A DNA stretch of 36,683 bases, taken from the NCBI GenBank assembly GCA_903917235.1, contig CAIWZS010000492.1, forward strand, positions 1 through 36,683. Reading direction: 5' to 3'. Below, one piece after another: positions 8,641 to 27,221 of this stretch (the first letter of the stretch is position 1; each line of letters opens with the position of its first letter). This DNA comes from an uncultured Planctomycetaceae bacterium. Its GTDB lineage: Bacteria > Planctomycetota > Planctomycetia > Pirellulales > UBA1268. Under the pieces are notes generated by a model. That model did no database searches and had not been told where the DNA came from. It saw only the letters and a program-made list of their open reading frames with translations. Made by a program: the position numbers and the translations under genes.

Positions 8641-9030
8641 CACGTGGAAAAAGCCATCCATGGCCTTTTTCCACTGATGGAGGACGCTGCGTCGTGCAGC
8701 GACACGTGGAAAAGCCGTCCATAACGCCGCAGCCGATCGGCGGCGCAGGCGCTGAACCTTCGTAATGCACGCCTCCAGCCGCACGCATGCCCTCGTGGCG
8801 CACGCCTCGAAGCGTGCGAATGCGGCCCCACTGCCGTTCGACCCGAGTCCTCGGGCCCGACGTCCCCTCCAGCGGCACGCGTCTCCGTGCCACCCTGACG
8901 CTCGCTCGCTCGCACGCCTGGAGACGTGCGCCACGGACGGCAGATCAGGCACATGGTTGAAGGCACCGCATGCCACGCCCTCCGTGAGACGCAGCGGGCG
9001 CCACGGACGGTGCACTCGGGCGGGTGGCAC
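8641..9030. repeat. intergenic stretch with repeats and stem-loops
   Basis: No convincing gene lies between the FKBP stop and the alcohol dehydrogenase stop. It holds two near-identical 20-base direct repeats (8641-8661 and 8703-8722, differing by one A and one base change). It also has three short stem-loops with GCACG/CGTGC-type stems: 8799-8818 (7-bp stem), 8874-8891 (6-bp stem) and 8911-8930 (6-bp stem). The 13-base word gcgccacggacgg occurs twice, near 8929 and 8999. The repeats resemble the remains of dispersed palindromic elements rather than a coding region. Confidence 0.55.
8644..8674 (+). terminator. hairpin after FKBP gene
   Basis: GTGGAAAAAGCC at 8644-8655 pairs with GGCCTTTTTCCAC at 8662-8674 with one bulged base. 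The hairpin lies seven bases after the FKBP stop. The T-run lies inside the right arm rather than after it, so it could slow transcription in either direction or be part of a dispersed repeat. The left arm and its flank (8641-8661) recur almost unchanged at 8703-8722. Confidence 0.5.
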
Positions 9031-16119: not shown

Positions 16120-18953
16120 CACCGGAGCGTCACAAAGTCGTTGTGGTTGAGCAGCGCCCACACGAGGAGCACCCGCGCCGGGTCGGCGGCTCCCGCCGCC
16201 GGCTTCGCCACCGCCCGCCATCTGCCGAGCGTGGCCTCACAGGCGGCCCGCTCGTCGGCCGACGGATCGCGCTGCAGGATCGTCTCGAAGGCCCGCTCGA
16301 GGAACGCCGTGTCGTCACCCGCCCCGACCGCGAGCCGCGCGGCGATCCCGGCCGCCGCATCATGCACGATCGCGGCGTTGGCCAACGCGAGCGCCTGCTG
16401 CGGCACGATGCTCCGCTCGCGCTCGTAGCACTCCTTCGCGGCGGCATCGTCGAACGTCGTCAGGAACAGGTTGCGGCTGATGTCGGAATGCCAGAAGTAC
16501 AGGCTCCGCCGACGGGAGGTCGCCTGCGCGGACTCCCGTACCGGCGGACCGCCCATCGTGAGGTCGAGCATGCCGGCAAGGGCGAGAACACCGTCGCGGA
16601 CGACCTGTGCCTCGAGCCGGATCGGCTCCCGCCGCCACACGAGCCGGTTGTCGGGGTCGATCGCCAGCGCGGCATCGGCGCCCGCGGTCGACGACCCCAT
16701 CCGGTAGGCGGCCGACGTGCAGATGAGACGGTGGAGGTGCTTCATGCTCCAGCCCGCGCCGCCCCGCGACCCCTCTTGCCGCGGCCCGTCCACCAGTTCG
16801 CTCGCGAGCCAGTCGACGAGTTCGGGGTGCGCGGGGGCCTCTCCCTTCCGTCCAAACTCGAAGACGGTCGACACGAGCGGCCTGCCCATGTGCCGCATCC
16901 AGAGATGGTTGGCGGCGACGCGGGCGGTGAGCGGATTCTGCGGGTCGGTGATCCAGCGGGCCAGGGCCGTGCGACGGCCGGTGCTCGTCGTGGGGAAGGG
17001 CACGGCGGGGTCGTCAGCCGTCGACGTCCTGAACCGCGTGGCCGTCCATCGCGCTCCGGCGAGCGGCATGAACGTCCCTTCGGCCGCATCGACGGCCTGC
17101 ACCGCCTTCTCGACCGCTTCACGAGCCGCGGCCAGTGCCTTCTCGGCCTCGCCCTTCTTCTCCGGGGCGGCCGTGGCGACCGTGTCCTCCACCTCGGCCA
17201 CCTTCCGCCGGGCGCGGGCGACGGCGAGTTGCCGTTCGGCACGGACGGCCGCCGTCGCCGCCTCCGTGCGGCGCTCGAGCGCGTCGTCGGCACCGCCGTC
17301 GGCGGCCGCCTCCCAGGCGGTGCGCGTCGCCGCGGCGCGGCAAACGACACTCTCGAGCGCGGCCTGCTCCACTGCGAGGCCAGCACGGGCGACGGCGAGC
17401 TGTCGCTCAGCCGTGGCCACGAGTGCCCGGGTGGCGTCGATCGACGGCACGGCCGGCGCCGAGACAGCCTCGCGCTCGGCCGTGGCGAGCGTCGTCCTCG
17501 CGGCAGACGCCTTCTCGACGGCCTTCGTCACCGCGGACTCGGCCGACTCGACGGCGCGGCGGGCCGTCGCCACGTGCGCCTCGAGGACCCACGGCCGGCG
17601 CTCGGGCTCGAACGCGGTCGGTGGCAGCGAGACGGGACGTACCTCGATCCCGCGAAACGCGAGCACCTCGGGCACGCCCGGCTCGAACGACCGTGACGTG
17701 TCGGGCTTCGTGTCCTCGCCACGGACGAACAGATGGGTGGGGCGATCGAGGTGACCGTCGAAGACCCGCGGGATGCCGTCCCTCTCGAGATCACCCTCGC
17801 CCGGCACCACGTCCACGCGGGTCTCGATCGGCTCGAAAAACGCCCGGAACCGGTAGTAGTCCTCCTGCCGGATCGGATCGTACTTGTGGGCGTGGCACTT
17901 CGCGCAGTTCAGCGTCAGGCCGAGCAGACCCTTGCCGACGTGCTCCACCGTCTCGTCGAGCCAGGGCGTGCGGTTGAAGAGGAACCAGTTGCGGGCGAGG
18001 AAGCCGGTGGCCCGCAGCCTGGCCGGATCGTCCGGATGGAGTTCGTCGGCCGCGAGCATCTGCCGCAGCATCTCATCGTAGCCGACGTCGGCATTGAGCG
18101 ACTCCACGATCCAGTCACGGAAGTGCCACATGTGCTTCGCGCTGTTGCGATGCTGGTCGCCCAGGCCCCACCAGTCGGCATACCGCCAGACATCCATCCA
18201 GTGCCGCGCCCACCGCTCGCCGTGCCGTGGGTCGGCGAGCAGTCTCTCGACGAGCCGTTCGTACCAGTCGGGGGAGGCGTCGGCCTCGATCGCGGCCATG
18301 TCCTCCGGCTGCGGCGGCAGCCCGACGAGATCGACGAAGAGCCGGCGGACGAGCACGTGCCGCGGGGCCTCCGGCTGCGGCGTGATACCCGCCAGGTCGT
18401 GGGCCCGCGCGAGAAACGCGTCGATCGGATTCCGCACCCGCGCGGCATCCTGCACCTGCGGCACTGCCGGGCGCGTCCGTGGCCGGAACGCCCAGTGGTC
18501 GCGGGGATCCGCCTCGGGCCGCTCGTCGGCCGGTGCGGGACATCCGGCTGCGATCCAGCCCGCGAGCGCCGCCACCTGCTCCGCGGAGAGCGGCTCCGCC
18601 TCGCCATCGGGCGGCATCCTCGTCGCGGCATCCGGGTCGGCGACGCGGGCGACGATCATGCTCGACGCGGGGTCGTTCCGCACCGCAGCCGGCCCCGACT
18701 CGCCTCCTGCGAGCAGGAGCGCCGCGGTGTCGAGCCGCAGACCGGCCTCCTGCCGCAGGGCGCCGTGGCATGAGACACAGCGTTCCGCGAGGAGCGGACG
18801 AATCGTCTCGACGTAGGCCGACTCGCTGACGGCCGGCGCCGAGTCGGTCTCGACCGCCCACGCCCGGCCCGCGACCACGAGAAGCAGGATCGGCAGGGCG
18901 ACGCCCGACACGCCCGGGATCGACGGGTGCGGCATGCGCGGCAGCGGTGGCAT
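16119..18953 (-). CDS. Planctomycete cytochrome protein, PSCyt1-DUF1549-DUF1553
   Basis: A protein of about 944 residues. After a signal peptide ([17 protein letters not shown]) comes a PSCyt1 domain with a c-type haem motif CVSCH near residue 60, then a DUF1549/PSCyt2 domain with a second motif CAKCH near 351 and typical [14 protein letters not shown]. The C-terminal DUF1553/PSD1 domain starts near residue 640 ([35 protein letters not shown]). Between them, about residues 454-624, is a long Ala/Glu-rich region of helical coiled-coil character. The start at 18953 was chosen because a GGGAG ribosome binding site lies about ten bases before it; ATGs at 18962 and 18935 are alternatives. It is probably periplasmic and haem-bearing, with an unproven role in electron transfer linked to polymer or sugar use. 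Confidence 0.88.
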
Positions 18954-19164: not shown

Positions 19165-21738
<2,574 letters not shown>

Positions 21739-22101: not shown

Positions 22102-23220
22102 TCAGTCGGCCGCCAGCGGCATGATGACGTAGCCGTAGCCGTCCTCGGTGCGACAGACGCAGGCGCTCTGCGAGTCGGTGAGTTCGACCGTCACGGCCGT
22201 GCCGCCGTCGAGCACGCGGAGGAACTCGCTGACGAACCGGGGATCGAGCTTGATGCGCAGGGTCGGTCCGGCATGATCGATCGGCAGCTCGATCCGGCTC
22301 TCGCCACTCTCCGCCGACCGGCCCGAGACGATCAGCTGCCCCGGCTCGAACGTGAAGTCGACTCCCTTCGACTGCTCACTCGTGACGATCGCCGCCTGCC
22401 GCACGGCACCGAGGAACGGACCGGCGACCAGGCCGATGCGGGTCGCCTCGGGCCGCTCCGGAAACACGTCGCGCCACCGCGGAAAGCGCCCCTCCACGAG
22501 CCGCGCCGAGATCGTGGTCGGACCCGACGCGACGAGGATCTCGCTCTGCCGCACCGCGACCCGCACCGGCACGTCCGCCGCACCGAGGCAGCGTTCGACG
22601 AGCTGCATCGCCTTGGCCGGCACGATCGGCTGGGAATCCGCCGTCGGACCGCCGGCGCCCTGCGTCACCGCCGGCCCCTCCATCTTCGCCAGCCGACGGC
22701 CGTCGGTGCCGACCGCGATGACGCCCGCCGCACCGAGTTCCACGAGCACGCCGCCGAGCGCGTAGCGGCTCGACTCGCTGTCCGTCGCGAACACCGTGCG
22801 TCGCACGAGCTCGCGCACGAGCGGTGCCGCCATCTCGTAGCAGGGCGATCCGGGAAACGCCGACACCGACGGGAACTCGAGCGGGTCTTCGGCGGGAAGC
22901 CGAAAGGAACTGCGCGGAGCCTTGACGACGGCCGCACTGCCGTCGGAGTGGATGTCGAACACCGTGCCCGCCGCGCTCTCGCGGAGGATCGCCGTGAGCC
23001 GCCCACTGGGCAGGAGCACCGCGCCCGGCGCGGACACCTCGACGCCCTCCACCTCGATCCGGATGCCCACCTCGAGATCGGTGGCGGACAGCACCACGCC
23101 CTCGCGGGTCGCCTCGAGCTTCACGTTCGTGAGGACGGGCTTCGGAGATCGTGCCGGCACGACCGCCGATGCGGACTGCAGCGCCGCCAGCAGGGGCTCT
23201 CTCGGGCACCGAACGTTCAT
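22102..23220 (-). CDS. dnaN: DNA polymerase III beta subunit (sliding clamp)
   Basis: A protein of 372 residues, the normal beta-clamp length. Three repeats of the clamp fold are visible through VLTNVKLEATREGVVLSATDLEVGI, the middle-domain FATDSESSRYALGGVLVEL and VGTDGRRLAKMEG, and the third-domain GPFLGAVRQAAIVTSEQSKGVDFTF with the C-terminal YGYVIMPLAAD. The C-terminal MPL motif is part of the protein-binding cleft. The ATG at 23220 was chosen because the typical start (MNVRCPREPLLAALQ) begins there. The clamp confers processivity on DNA polymerase III. Confidence 0.96.
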   Translation of the reverse strand: MNVRCPREPLLAALQSASAVVPARSPKPVLTNVKLEATREGVVLSATDLEVGIRIEVEGVEVSAPGAVLLPSGRLTAILRESAAGTVFDIHSDGSAAVVKAPRSSFRLPAEDPLEFPSVSAFPGSPCYEMAAPLVRELVRRTVFATDSESSRYALGGVLVELGAAGVIAVGTDGRRLAKMEGPAVTQGAGGPTADSQPIVPAKAMQLVERCLGAADVPVRVAVRQSEILVASGPTTISARLVEGRFPRWRDVFPERPEATRIGLVAGPFLGAVRQAAIVTSEQSKGVDFTFEPGQLIVSGRSAESGESRIELPIDHAGPTLRIKLDPRFVSEFLRVLDGGTAVTVELTDSQSACVCRTEDGYGYVIMPLAAD

Positions 23221-23669
23221 GGACGCGTCGTCCCTCCCGGGCGGATCACGGCGGGCCGCCGTCACGGACGGGGCGTTCGCCGAATCCCCGATCATACCCG
23301 AAAGATGGGGCGATTGAATGCCCCGGCAGCTCGTGCATCCTGGCCGACGCTCCGCCCTTTCTGATCCGATTCATGAATTGAAAAGAGAGGGATAGCAGGA
23401 TGCGGACAGGAAGATGAGGAACAGGAGGACCCACCCCGCGATGACAGGTCACGGGCACGGCACGGGCATGCCGGTCGAACGGAGACGTCGTGCCGCCCCG
23501 ATTTTTCCGTGGTGCAGCGAGGCCGTCGAAGCCACCCGGCCCGGAGACGCGGTGGTGGAAATCCTGACGGTCTCGTGTCGTGGTCGTGATCGGCCCGTGT
23601 ATGTCCTCCTGCCGCTCGGTCGCCGGTGTGCCGCAATGGATGTCGCGATGCGCGTCGGGCTCTTGCCTG
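23221..23669. other. dnaA-dnaN intergenic region
   Basis: About 450 bases without a gene I can support. The stretch 23361-23400 is AT-richer than its surroundings and contains the perfect palindrome ATTCATGAAT (23369-23378). No sequence close to the standard DnaA box TTATCCACA is visible on either strand. A promoter for dnaN must lie here unless dnaN is read through from dnaA. A replication origin is possible by position but is not shown by the sequence. Confidence 0.4.
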
Positions 23670-24650
23670 TCACGCGGTCGATCGGCGGCGGGGCGTGCGT
23701 CGGGTGGAATGTCGTCTCGTCCGACGCGGCGTTCCTGTGGCCGGATCGACAGTCTGCCGACACCGAGTGTCACTGGAACCCGGGGCGGCGGCGAGTGAAC
23801 GGGAAAGGTGCGCGAGGTCGGCGGCGAATGCCGGATCCCGCGAGAGTCTCCTCTCGATGACGCGCACGCCGTGGAGCACCGTCGTGTGGTCGCGGCCACC
23901 GCAGGCATGGCCGATCGCGTAGAGGCTCTGGTCGGTGAGGTGCCGCGCGAGGTACATCGCGATGCTCCTCGCCTCGGCGACCGCGCGGCACCGTGACGGA
24001 CCGACGAGATCACCGGTCGTGAGATCGTGGTGGCGGGCGACGGCGGTCAGCAGGCGGCGCAGGGAGAGGGCCGGGCCCGCGGGTGCCGGGCCGGGCGCGC
24101 ACACGGGCGTCGGCACGTGCACGACCAGACCGCCGCACAGGCGCGACGTCAGCGCGGGCTCGAGGTCGCTCAGCATCGGGTGCGTCGCGAGCGTCAGGCA
24201 GAAGGCCGTGCCGGAATCGACGGCGGCGTCGAAGAGCTGGATGAACGCGTGCTGGAACCCCGGCGGTCCGATCTGGTCGATCCCCTCGATGAGGCAGCGC
24301 GGCGATGCCGCAAGACGGCTGTGAAGCGCGCCGAGGCGGTCGGAGCGGAGTGCGACCCCGATCGCCCGTCCGAGCTCCGGGCCGGTCCAATGCGTCAGCG
24401 ACGCACCGGCCGCGTCAGGCTCCCCGGCGGTCGCGTCCGGGAGCAGGCGTCGGACGACATCCGGCCGTGGCGAGACGATGACGAGCGGACCGAGCCGACC
24501 AGGCGGATCGCTGCATCCCTCCCCAGCGAACCGTCGCAGCGCGAAATCGACGAGCGTTTCCGCGGTTGGCCGCTCGGCGGCGGCGAGGCGTCGTTGTGCA
24601 GGGAGGGCGGCGTGCAGGGCACGGACCGATCGGGATGCGGACGCGGCCAT
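23670..24650 (-). CDS. dnaA: reduced DnaA homologue without Walker A
   Basis: A protein of 326 residues against about 450 for normal DnaA. Residues 197-286 are a clear DnaA domain IV: LLTAVARHHDLTTGDLVG, the basic loop RCRAVAEARSIAMYLARHLT and the signature GGRDHTTVLHGVRVIE. Upstream, an AAA+ core can be aligned but is degenerate. GPLVIVSPRPDVVRRLL (54-70) stands where PLFIYGGVGLGKTHLL belongs, so the nucleotide-binding loop is gone. CLIEGIDQI (119-127) replaces Walker B, and LTSRLCGGL keeps the arginine region. Domain I is absent, and the lid subdomain is replaced by a short proline-rich linker (180-196). The ATG has an AGGGG ribosome binding site about ten bases before it. The position before dnaN marks it as the syntenic dnaA, but ATP-dependent origin melting looks unlikely. 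Confidence 0.85.
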   Translation of the reverse strand: MAASASRSVRALHAALPAQRRLAAAERPTAETLVDFALRRFAGEGCSDPPGRLGPLVIVSPRPDVVRRLLPDATAGEPDAAGASLTHWTGPELGRAIGVALRSDRLGALHSRLAASPRCLIEGIDQIGPPGFQHAFIQLFDAAVDSGTAFCLTLATHPMLSDLEPALTSRLCGGLVVHVPTPVCAPGPAPAGPALSLRRLLTAVARHHDLTTGDLVGPSRCRAVAEARSIAMYLARHLTDQSLYAIGHACGGRDHTTVLHGVRVIERRLSRDPAFAADLAHLSRSLAAAPGSSDTRCRQTVDPATGTPRRTRRHSTRRTPRRRSTA

Positions 24651-24783: not shown

Positions 24784-25992
24784 TCAGGTCGCGCCGTGCC
24801 CGTTGGCGCGGGCGCAGCGGTGCAGCACGTCCGCGAGGCGGCTGCCGACCTGTTCGACGTCGGGCGGTCGCGTGTCGCGCCCGAGGCTGAACCGCACCGC
24901 CGAGCGAGTGACCGCTTCCTCCAGGCCCGCCGCCACGAGCGCGGGCGATGGCTCGCTCGAACCACTCGCGCAGGCCGTGCCGGTCGCCAGGCACACGCCC
25001 GCGAGGTCGGCCGCGATGACGAGCGTCTGGCGATCGACGCCCGGGAAGGCGATCGTCGTGATGTGTGCCACGCGTCGCGCCGTCTCCGCGACGATCACGG
25101 CCCGCAGGCCTGACGCTGCGGCAGCCGCCTGGATCGCCGTCTCGAGCCGCGTGCGGAGGTCCGTGATCCGGGCCGTTTCCGCCGCGCGTTCCGCCACCGC
25201 CAATTCGAGGGCCCGGGCGAACCCCACCGCGAGCACCACCGCCTCGGTTCCACCCCGGAGGCCCTCCTCCTGCGGTCCCGACACCACCGGCTCGAGGCCG
25301 CTGCCTCGGCGCACGAGCAGGCCGCCGATGCCCCGCGGACCGCCGAACTTGTGCGGCGCAAGCGTGAGCGTCGCGGCGGGCAGCCGGGACAGGTCGACGG
25401 GCAGGTAGGCGATCGCCTGCGTCGCATCCACGTGCACGGCGAGCCCGGGCGTGCGGGCGACGAGATGGGCGACGGCCGCCATGTCCTCCACCGCGCCCGT
25501 CTGGCCGCATGCGAGCGTCGTCGACAGGATGCGTCTCCCGCCCGTCGCGTCGGGCAGGAGGTCTGAAAGATCGGCGGGCAGGGCGAGCGTGGCGTCGGTT
25601 CGCAGGGGTATCTGGACCGCCGACCACCCGCCGCGCCGCGCGAGCATGTCCGTGGCCGCCCGGATGCTGCCGTGGTCGCGGGCCGAAGAGAGGATCGTCC
25701 CGCCCCCACTCCCCGCGAGGCCGACGATGCCGAGGACGTTGGCCTCCGTCGCCCCACCGGTGAAGACGAGTTGGTCACGCGCCCCGCCGACCACCCGGGC
25801 CCCGAGCAGCGTGAGGATCCGTTCGCGACAGTCCTCGAGCACGCGTCTCGCGTCGCGTCCGGCCGCGTGCAGGCTCGACGGGTTCGCGAAGGCCCGGACG
25901 GCCGCCTCGCGCATCGCCTCGTCGACCTCGGGCCGCACGCGGGTCGCCGCGGCATGGTCGAGATAGATCACGGCGGAGGGGTCGGCTGCCAT
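24784..25992 (-). CDS. cysteine desulfurase (NifS/IscS family)
   Basis: A PLP enzyme of 402 residues that takes sulfur from L-cysteine for iron-sulfur clusters or thiolation. It starts with the typical VIYLDHAAATRVRPEV. The cofactor-binding lysine is Lys215 in LAPHKFGGPRGIGGL, preceded by VHVDATQAIAYLPVDL. The persulfide cysteine is Cys341 in LATGTACASGSSEPS, which has the longer loop typical of group I enzymes. The ATG at 25992 was preferred to the GTG at 26010, which overlaps the upstream stop. No scaffold (iscU/nifU) gene is adjacent. It lies 14 bases after the aminotransferase and upstream of dnaA on the same strand. Confidence 0.92.
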   Translation of the reverse strand: MAADPSAVIYLDHAAATRVRPEVDEAMREAAVRAFANPSSLHAAGRDARRVLEDCRERILTLLGARVVGGARDQLVFTGGATEANVLGIVGLAGSGGGTILSSARDHGSIRAATDMLARRGGWSAVQIPLRTDATLALPADLSDLLPDATGGRRILSTTLACGQTGAVEDMAAVAHLVARTPGLAVHVDATQAIAYLPVDLSRLPAATLTLAPHKFGGPRGIGGLLVRRGSGLEPVVSGPQEEGLRGGTEAVVLAVGFARALELAVAERAAETARITDLRTRLETAIQAAAAASGLRAVIVAETARRVAHITTIAFPGVDRQTLVIAADLAGVCLATGTACASGSSEPSPALVAAGLEEAVTRSAVRFSLGRDTRPPDVEQVGSRLADVLHRCARANGHGAT

Positions 25993-26006
25993 GGGGGCAT
26001 CATGGC

Positions 26007-27221
26007 TCACGCCCCCGTGGTGGATGCGAGGAACCGTTCGATGCGATCGAGACCGGTGGCGAGCCGTTCCTCGGAGGCCGCGAAGGACATCCGCACATGG
26101 CCCTCGGCGCCGAAGGCGCTCCCCGCCACGGTCGCGACCTGTTCACGATCGAGCAGGGCCGTGCACCACTCGAGGCTCGTGCCGATGCCATGCCGGCGCG
26201 ACCGCTCGAGCGGCGCCCGGATGTCGCAGAAGGCATAGAAGGCGCCGCCGATCGTGGGCACCCGCACGCCCGGCATCCGGGCCAGCCGGCCGACCACGTA
26301 GTCGCGTCGGCGCTGGAACTCCCGGCACATGTCGGCCACGCAGGCCTGTGGCCCCTCGAGGGCCGCCAGAGCGGCGTGCTGGCTGACGCTCGAGGGGTTG
26401 CTCGTCTCCTGGCTCTGCAGGTTGCCGATCGCGCGGGCGAGCGGCTCGGGGGAGATCGTCCACCCGATCCGCCAGCCCGTCATCGAGTAGGTCTTGCTCA
26501 CGCCGGCCACGACGACGGTGCGCGCGGCGAGGCCTGGCCGCAGCGTGGGGAACGAGACCGCGCGGCGGCCGTCGAACACGAGCTGGTCGTAGATCTCGTC
26601 CGCCACGACCGCGAGATCGGCCTGGATGGCGACGTCGGCGAGGGCACCGAGTTCGTCGGGCGTGTAGACGACGCCCGTCGGGTTGCTCGGGGAACAGAGC
26701 AGCAGCATCCGCGTGCGCGGCGTCAGGGCGGACCGGAGGCCGTCGGGCGAGAGCTTGAAATCGTCCTCGATCCCGGTCTCGACGAGCACGGGCCTCGCGC
26801 CCGTCAGCTTCACGAGTTCCGCGTAGCTCACCCAGTAGGGCGTGGGCACGACGACCTCGTCGCCGGGATCGAGCAGCGCGGTGAAGACGTTGTGGAGGGC
26901 GTGCTTGGCACCATTGGAGACGACGACCTGGGCCGCGGTGGTGGCGAGACCAGAGCGCCGGGCGAAGTCCGCGGCGACGGCCTGCCGCAGCGCCGGAATC
27001 CCGGCGGCCGGCGTGTACTTCGTCTTCCCGGCACGGATCGCCGCCTCCGCCGCCTGACAGATGTGGGGCGGCGTGGGGAAGTCGGGCTCGCCGACGGAGA
27101 GGTCGACAACGTCGTGTCCGGCAGCGGCCATCTGGGCGGCCTTGGCCGCCATCGCGAGCGTGGCTGAGGGCTCCAGCGCGTGCATGCGACTGGCCAGCCG
27201 GAGGCTGTGTGACGACTCCAT
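26007..27221 (-). CDS. aspartate-type aminotransferase (class I/II)
   Basis: A PLP aminotransferase of 404 residues. It resembles the bacterial AspC/AatA subgroup Ib, with SVGEPDFPTP near residue 42, KYTPAAGIPALRQAVAADF near 68, LLLCSPSNPTGVVY near 174, the VADEIYDQLVF segment near 206 and the cofactor lysine Lys243 in VAGVSKTYSMTGWRIGW. The C-terminal VRMSFAASEERLATGLDRIERFL contains the carboxylate-binding arginine. It should transfer amino groups between aspartate (or a related amino acid, possibly prephenate-derived) and 2-oxoglutarate. The start at 27221 was chosen because sequence upstream is not family-like. The gene precedes the cysteine desulfurase by 14 bases. Confidence 0.9.
   Translation of the reverse strand: MESSHSLRLASRMHALEPSATLAMAAKAAQMAAAGHDVVDLSVGEPDFPTPPHICQAAEAAIRAGKTKYTPAAGIPALRQAVAADFARRSGLATTAAQVVVSNGAKHALHNVFTALLDPGDEVVVPTPYWVSYAELVKLTGARPVLVETGIEDDFKLSPDGLRSALTPRTRMLLLCSPSNPTGVVYTPDELGALADVAIQADLAVVADEIYDQLVFDGRRAVSFPTLRPGLAARTVVVAGVSKTYSMTGWRIGWTISPEPLARAIGNLQSQETSNPSSVSQHAALAALEGPQACVADMCREFQRRRDYVVGRLARMPGVRVPTIGGAFYAFCDIRAPLERSRRHGIGTSLEWCTALLDREQVATVAGSAFGAEGHVRMSFAASEERLATGLDRIERFLASTTGA

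Follow-up and report, generated by a model that had tools for sequence, protein, structure and literature searches.

The usual picture of DnaA is of a single conserved ATPase for each chromosome, with its gene often next to the origin that it serves. Hda, the factor behind regulatory inactivation of DnaA, lacks domain IV. It acts as an ADP form together with the clamp, and Arg285, the arginine finger of E. coli DnaA, is not needed for this regulation; Arg281 of box VII is needed for domain III contacts (PMC5742627). Besides its contact with ATP in trans, the arginine finger has a stabilising effect in cis on the AAA+ fold, and three Gram-negative DnaAs are able to separate strands with ADP in vitro (PMC8287927). 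DnaA paralogues are already in the literature: Chlamydiae have DnaA1 and DnaA3, described in a paper whose accessible text does not mention P-loop loss (PMC4989314), and Acidaminococcus has two neighbouring dnaA genes (PMC4403523). A literature search that was partial, and is thus no proof of absence, found no description of a P-loop-less DnaA beside dnaN or of a two-DnaA state in planctomycetes.

The window (the whole stretch of DNA analysed here, 36,683 nucleotides from an uncultured planctomycete) carries such a gene beside dnaN. Its product, the short DnaA, resembles the DnaA initiators of E. coli and B. subtilis (TIGR00362) in its domain IV signature, its arginine finger, its place beside dnaN and, in a structure model, its RecA-like core, but it is without domain I, P-loop, lid and sensor II and reaches 92.8 bits with the NCBIfam DnaA model, under the cut-off of 343.9. 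With Hda it shares a DnaA-derived AAA+ core as a possible partner of DnaA, and the Hda structures 3sc3 and 3bos are among its fold matches; unlike Hda, it keeps domain IV and shows no nucleotide site. Proteins consisting of DnaA domain IV only (PRK06030) have a related helix-turn-helix (E 1.5e-5), and the domain IV of the short DnaA finds matches at many loci of alphaproteobacteria, but the domain-IV-only models span 140 and 151 positions, leaving its AAA+ remnant and arginine finger outside the match. The chlamydial paralogues, which likewise show that a PVC bacterium can have several DnaAs, are set beside it by description only.

The short DnaA and its locus

The short dnaA gene (23670–24650, minus strand; 326 amino acids from ATG) adjoins dnaN, encoding the sliding clamp (22102–23295), across a gap at 23296–23669, and is followed on the same strand by dnaN, dciA (helicase operator, PF05258; 21739–22101) and gyrB (19165–21657). 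On the other side of dnaA, also on the minus strand, lies a class-V aminotransferase (nifS-like) gene at 24784–26010. Most homologous matches to the dnaN product start near residue 18–25. The window also carries a planctomycete cytochrome domain.

An earlier note on this DNA, made from the letters alone, had described a DnaA with a well-kept domain IV that has lost much of its ATPase, and in most respects that description holds. Residues 200–264 (23859–24053) match Bac_DnaA_C (PF08299) with an E value of 4.1e-22 and 81.8 bits, and the DnaA signature GGRDHTTVLHG is present in the helix-turn-helix. The Bac_DnaA ATPase domain (PF00308) gives no Pfam match up to a maximum E of 10, the only other match being a meaningless one at E 8.1. 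At the Walker A position (residues 54–70; 24441–24491) the protein reads GPLVIVSPRPDVVRRLL, with no P-loop, and at the Walker B position (residues 118–127, RCLIEGIDQI; 24270–24299) the acidic pair is altered to give the CLIEGIDQI already pointed out. A displaced Walker A was considered and rejected, as G-x4-GK[ST] is found nowhere in the ORF. Domain I is likewise absent, with only 254 residues between the ATG and the HTT of domain IV, compared with 433 in E. coli DnaA. The frame is open further upstream (402 residues, with a GTG at 359) but there enters the nifS-like gene, and in 11 of the 14 short proteins of the window's genus the open frame before HTT is no longer than 311 residues.

The lid is missing together with sensor II, as seen both in the alignment and in the structure model, and a proline-rich linker (residues 179–199; 24054–24116) stands in its place. 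The loss is smaller than the 80–90 residues first proposed: 85 residues separate R170 from HTT, as against 143–153 in nine lid-bearing short homologues (and 149 between arginine finger and HTT in E. coli DnaA), giving a net loss of about 64. The arginine finger motif itself, SRLCGGL (within residues 163–176; 24123–24164), on which the earlier note is silent, is intact, R170 corresponding to E. coli R285, and the position of box VII Arg281 is occupied by alanine (A166). GC content by codon position is 0.75/0.62/0.81 over the gene and 0.63/0.88/0.63 over the last 40 codons, coding statistics being weak in the C-terminal tail (23670–23783), which is poorly conserved.

An AlphaFold2 model of the short DnaA built from 32 sequences (mean pLDDT 83.2, pTM 0.59) has a confident five-stranded core that goes straight into domain IV, without a lid. 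Foldseek places DnaA structures first (8btg, 1l8q, 3r8f, 2hcb), with Hda appearing from rank 15 down; the rmsd is 0.9 Å for domain IV alone against 1j1v and 8.7 Å or more for the whole chain. An assembly or contamination artefact was also considered and rejected: the P-loop pattern is missing from 19 further proteins of 18 other genomes, so its loss is not a one-off assembly slip, and the domain IV of the second DnaA (below) is identical in the nearest congener (G006) and alike in the others.

The second DnaA and the fate of the short gene in relatives

The earlier note had offered two options: that a DnaA acting without ATP initiates here, or that a second full DnaA exists and the short one is a regulator. 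The window's genome (4.67 Mb in 553 contigs, 93.5% complete, 3.2% contaminated) encodes DnaA_C twice and the DnaA ATPase domain once. The ATPase domain is part of a second DnaA of 567 amino acids on a separate contig, C241 (PF00308, E 3.0e-36), with the Walker A sequence GPSGVGKT. This fits the second option as far as the second DnaA goes, regulation itself being a candidate role. With a second DnaA with a good ATP site encoded elsewhere, the short protein is probably a dnaN-linked helper or relic at the origin and not the initiator. The second DnaA too scores under the NCBIfam cut-off of 343.9 (294.5 bits). For domain I it gives a weak match of 15.2 bits, where the Pfam cut-off is 24.6; two of the five proteins of this type scanned pass that cut-off.

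The two proteins differ in the recognition helix, which in the second DnaA reads RSHSTV and not RDHTTV. Across the relatives RSH[ST]TV is found in 48 of 57 second-type rows and RDH[ST]T in none of them, whereas 43 of 50 short rows have RDH[ST]T. Residues 432–435 and 438–439 of this helix are listed among the base contacts (PMC5043019). In a quick tree, canonical DnaAs of other classes are separate (support 98), the RSHSTV type groups together in all but one row (support 99) and the short rows stand apart, on long branches; one RSHSTV-type row (G052) was cut at the wrong motif. A reading of the second dnaA as lying near the terminus fits G042 and G052 but was dropped because its positions are scattered in the one-contig genomes of family f21. 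In one congener without the dnaN-linked gene (G018, contig C34, L068) there is a 204-aa frame like the second type, possibly a truncated extra copy.

A DnaA_C match occurs in 59 of 60 related genomes and at least two occur in 46, among which G018 owes its place to a second-type fragment and G038 to a match that is weak and partial. Rows L052, L068 and one L029 frame were dropped before counting. Among 23 genomes from the order's other families, 22 carry a short frame of 360–473 aa by dnaN (in one, the linkage spans the ends of the record), with the P-loop in 22 of 22 and RDH[ST]T in 21, and a longer second DnaA (frames of 464–659 aa) is encoded elsewhere in all 23; in the remaining genome, G038, dnaN is at a contig end. 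The absence of domain I from these short proteins is judged by length, the model match in G042 starting at position 104 of 437. With its P-loop, the short protein of these families may be active. A contig search for named relatives gave matches mainly from other phyla. In a phylum-wide search, the best 30 loci of 244 genomes, all from other classes, encode long canonical DnaAs (frames of 440–596 aa), with the P-loop pattern in 26 and dnaN within the same 3-kb locus in 15. In families f51 and f77 some genomes carry many DnaA_C genes (seven in G210, nine in G268, twelve in G253).

Within the window's own family the picture is one of erosion. Outside the genus, nine genomes have the short gene, four with a P-loop (G022, G024, G028, G034) and five without; among the four only G022 keeps the lid, the other three being already lidless. 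In the genus the P-loop is found in none of 14 readable short proteins, all of which have an open ORF, and the fifteenth (G006) reads N there. One of the P-loop-less proteins (G030) still has GxxxxGK, followed by V. In five congeners (G005, G007, G010, G015, G018) and in G029 the nifS-like gene adjoins dnaN directly and the short gene was not found in these six loci, weak tblastn matches in three of them falling in the nifS-like stretch. G002 and five other genomes of the family have dnaN in different surroundings, without the short gene, and no dnaN was found in G019. Erosion in the family thus goes in steps: the lid, then the P-loop and then, in several congeners, the whole gene.

Two side observations belong here. 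At five gene-less loci of the family (L148, L151, L153, L154, L155) dnaN seems, by eye, to have moved, with a dciA-like stretch preceding it. One genome (G033; L098 and L105) has two separate short-dnaA plus dnaN loci, from either duplication or a mixed bin.

Origin position and origin motifs

GC skew places the replication origin of relatives at the dnaN locus, including that of a congener that lost the short gene. In G022 cumulative GC skew turns in the dnaA–dnaN gap (353247; 400 of 478 kb read), and in G018, the congener without the short gene, the minimum is at 74315 and the best split at 73001, with dnaN at 72491–73666. The split t values are 8.43 and 5.62 respectively, and none of 2000 block permutations was as high. 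A weaker turn is seen in G011 at 16830, in the start of dnaN (t 3.56; 6 of 2000 as high), and the two contigs carrying the second dnaA have no comparable turn (t 2.67 and 1.63). The window's own minimum, at 23367, lies inside the gap but lacks significance by itself, as 1164 of 5000 block permutations split just as strongly. For G042 (20 samples, four of the wrong sign) and G052 (10 samples, one near-zero value of the wrong sign) sampled skew is consistent with an origin close to the short gene, and in G041 it changes sign 0.3–1.1 Mb from the short gene.

With the skew origin at dnaN even where the short gene is gone, the remote DnaA is most likely the initiator at this origin. That the short protein is instead the working initiator, acting without ATP, we regard as highly improbable, and the first option of the earlier note, in which it initiates alone, is likewise unlikely: congeners without the gene keep dnaN, the skew origin stays there in one of them, the second DnaA is strongly constrained in congeners (omega 0.05–0.12), and the short DnaA has neither domain I nor a canonical box in its gap. 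What can be said for an ATP-free initiator is that the short gene lies at the skew origin of relatives and encodes a canonical GGRDHTTV, and that ADP suffices for some DnaAs in vitro.

When 8-mers were counted in 44 gap sequences, TTTTCCAC/GTGGAAAA ranked first (20 against 1.1 expected), and repeats of the CTACTACT type resemble DnaA-trios (consensus from PMC8287927 and PMC10721633). The box TTWTCCAC is present in the gap in 14 of 21 cases from other families, 6 of 8 from other genera and 0 of 14 from the window's genus, and three or more RCT trios in 10, one and none respectively. These counts draw on species that share ancestry, and G+C content is higher in the genus, but shuffles expect less than one box per set. 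L113, a duplicate of L005, was left out of the per-family box and trio counts and of later gap counts. The window's gap contains no TTWTCCAC box and no phased TGTYG pair (see below). Upstream of the second dnaA the box occurs in 16 of 23 genomes of the order (0.8 expected) and in 8 of 12 rows from the family's other genera (0.2 expected), but in none of 16 from the genus, nor in 587 bases of the window's genome. The TTTTCCAC-like site upstream of the second dnaA (for example in L048 and L094) is mostly single and is a possible autoregulation site.

These sites could mean that the short protein is an origin-bound transcription factor, regulating dnaA or dnaN by way of domain IV and TTTTCCAC sites with no part in the initiation complex. 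Outside the genus the box at dnaN does go with the gene (6 of 7 loci with it, 0 of 6 without; Fisher 0.0047), and the box upstream of the second dnaA shows a similar tendency (7 of 8 against 1 of 4; Fisher 0.067). Several gene-less dnaN loci are rearranged, however, so that the comparison is not clean; the sites are missing from gene-bearing genomes of the genus, and the one box among its six gene-less loci is at dnaN in G007. We consider a purely transcriptional role improbable.

Another motif, TGTYGRY, which was picked out by eye in the very sequences then used to count it, is in excess in the gaps of other families (67 against 10.3 expected), other genera (20 against 5.2) and the genus (26 against 7.4), and in the six gene-less loci (21 against 4.0). 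In 19 of 48 sequences there are TGTYG pairs with a spacing of exactly 11 bp, 29 in all, where 0.3 are expected and the maximum in 200 shuffles was two. L029, which is partly N and whose 'gap' starts inside the gene, was left out of the TGTYG counts and included in the 8-mer and TTWTCCAC gap counts. In G018 two of the three phased pairs in 99 kb sit just upstream of dnaN, but the gaps of G022 and G011, like that of the window, have none; the window's pair nearest dnaN, TGTCGGCAGACTGTCG (23747–23762, one of two in the window), falls in the part of the short gene that encodes the tail. Across the contigs scanned, dnaN is not the place where TGTYGRY is densest. The motif resembles the reverse complement of a DnaA box with one base changed, and we propose that the second DnaA may read these repeats.

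Put together, the two motifs suggest an origin with two initiators and split reading codes, the resident DnaA with its canonical helix reading TTTTCCAC and the remote RSHSTV DnaA reading TGTYGRY phased at 11 bp. In the window's genus the resident would have become a pseudo-ATPase keeping DNA binding and the arginine finger to control the ATP of the other, and would then have been lost with the origin staying in place. We offer this elaboration tentatively and think it rather unlikely.

Other motif candidates were set aside. Of canonical boxes the genome has one TTATNCACA against three for the reversed pattern; clustering of TTATCCACA at dnaA–dnaN was not seen in five relatives; and the dnaN gap and the second-dnaA upstream region share, within the genus, no 6-mer and two weak 7-mers. 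A TTTTCCAC cluster at 8643–8713 was rejected as a moved origin, since it is a palindrome also found elsewhere: the 31-bp palindrome GTGGAAAAAGCCATCCATGGCCTTTTTCCAC at 8644–8674, after an FKBP gene, contains TTTTCCAC in its arms. Such palindromes occur in the genus at two places in G000, 12 in G015, seven in G018 and eight in G019, with none or one in each of the other 18 genomes.

Selection on the remnant and its possible role

The earlier note had taken the short gene as selected rather than decaying, which is partly right. In six congener pairs (three of them drawn from only three genomes, and none including the window's own gene) omega is 0.26–0.39 over the N-terminal part, which includes the domain III remnant, and 0.10–0.53 over domain IV; two further pairs, from other genera and with saturated dS, give 0.17–0.20 and 0.05–0.10. 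Omega of the domain III remnant is thus below 0.4 in eight of eight pairs, whereas the tail after domain IV reaches 0.85–1.2 in four of the six congener pairs. Over seven pairs the second DnaA has 0.05–0.12 and dnaN 0.03–0.09 (0.04–0.09 in five of the congener pairs), and in five congener pairs the omega of the short gene is about two to seven times that of the second DnaA. The P-loop-less homologues (19 besides the window's) are, as judged from these sequence comparisons, under relaxed but real purifying selection, in a gene that is gone from five congeners.

Within the domain III remnant the 20 P-loop-less proteins all agree only at D141, R170, L171 and G174, R170 being kept in 10 of 12 P-loop-bearing short proteins of the same alignment, and SRLxxGL is retained in short proteins from which the P-loop has gone. 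The strict conservation of the arginine finger makes the earlier comparison with an Hda in reverse a fair analogy, although regulation is putative. Given the part that the arginine finger plays in cis in the stability of the AAA+ fold, it could be conserved without acting in trans, and action in trans is our inference.

Our preferred reading, to which we give a probability of roughly 0.6, is that the lineage has two DnaAs and that the short gene encodes the one resident at the origin, which has given up the initiator's role and become an ATP-independent accessory. The remote RSHSTV-type DnaA would fire the origin at dnaN and the short protein would bind origin DNA through domain IV, being unable to enter the filament as a nucleotide-bearing subunit. 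Its arginine finger would be offered to ATP held by the DnaA next to it, and the filament would in this way be capped, seeded or switched off, making the protein useful yet dispensable and, in parts of the genus, on its way out. Against this account, the binding and interaction of the short protein are what we infer from sequence, and gene loss and relaxed omega also fit plain decay. Further points that weigh against it are the alanine in place of Arg281, the dispensability of Arg285 for regulation by Hda, strand separation by some DnaAs with ADP, the low model scores of the second DnaA, the P-loop of the short protein in other families, the box of gene-less G007, the non-significant skew of the window and the deviating samples of G041 and G042.

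Decay is in fact the starting point of another explanation, which sees in the gene a former initiator whose job has passed to the second DnaA, leaving an ORF of little or no function. The stepwise loss of lid, P-loop and gene, the raised omega and the missing canonical boxes in the genus, both in the gap and upstream of the second dnaA, are all as a relic would have them. The ORF nevertheless stays open in every readable protein of the genus, the domain III remnant remains constrained in all pairs and SRLxxGL outlives the P-loop, and we find a mere relic a rather doubtful description.

Taken as a demoted accessory, the short DnaA and its origin look like a natural separation experiment, in which the origin stays, the resident DnaA sheds its ATPase stepwise and is at last gone, leaving a remote paralogue whose recognition helix differs. 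The system makes it testable which parts of DnaA an origin needs, and also whether an arginine finger can regulate a filament without a nucleotide site. It carries a practical caution as well: seven one-contig genomes of family f21 have records that start at a short frame of 340–345 aa, so that where a chromosome has been rotated to 'dnaA', its first gene may be the shorter of two.
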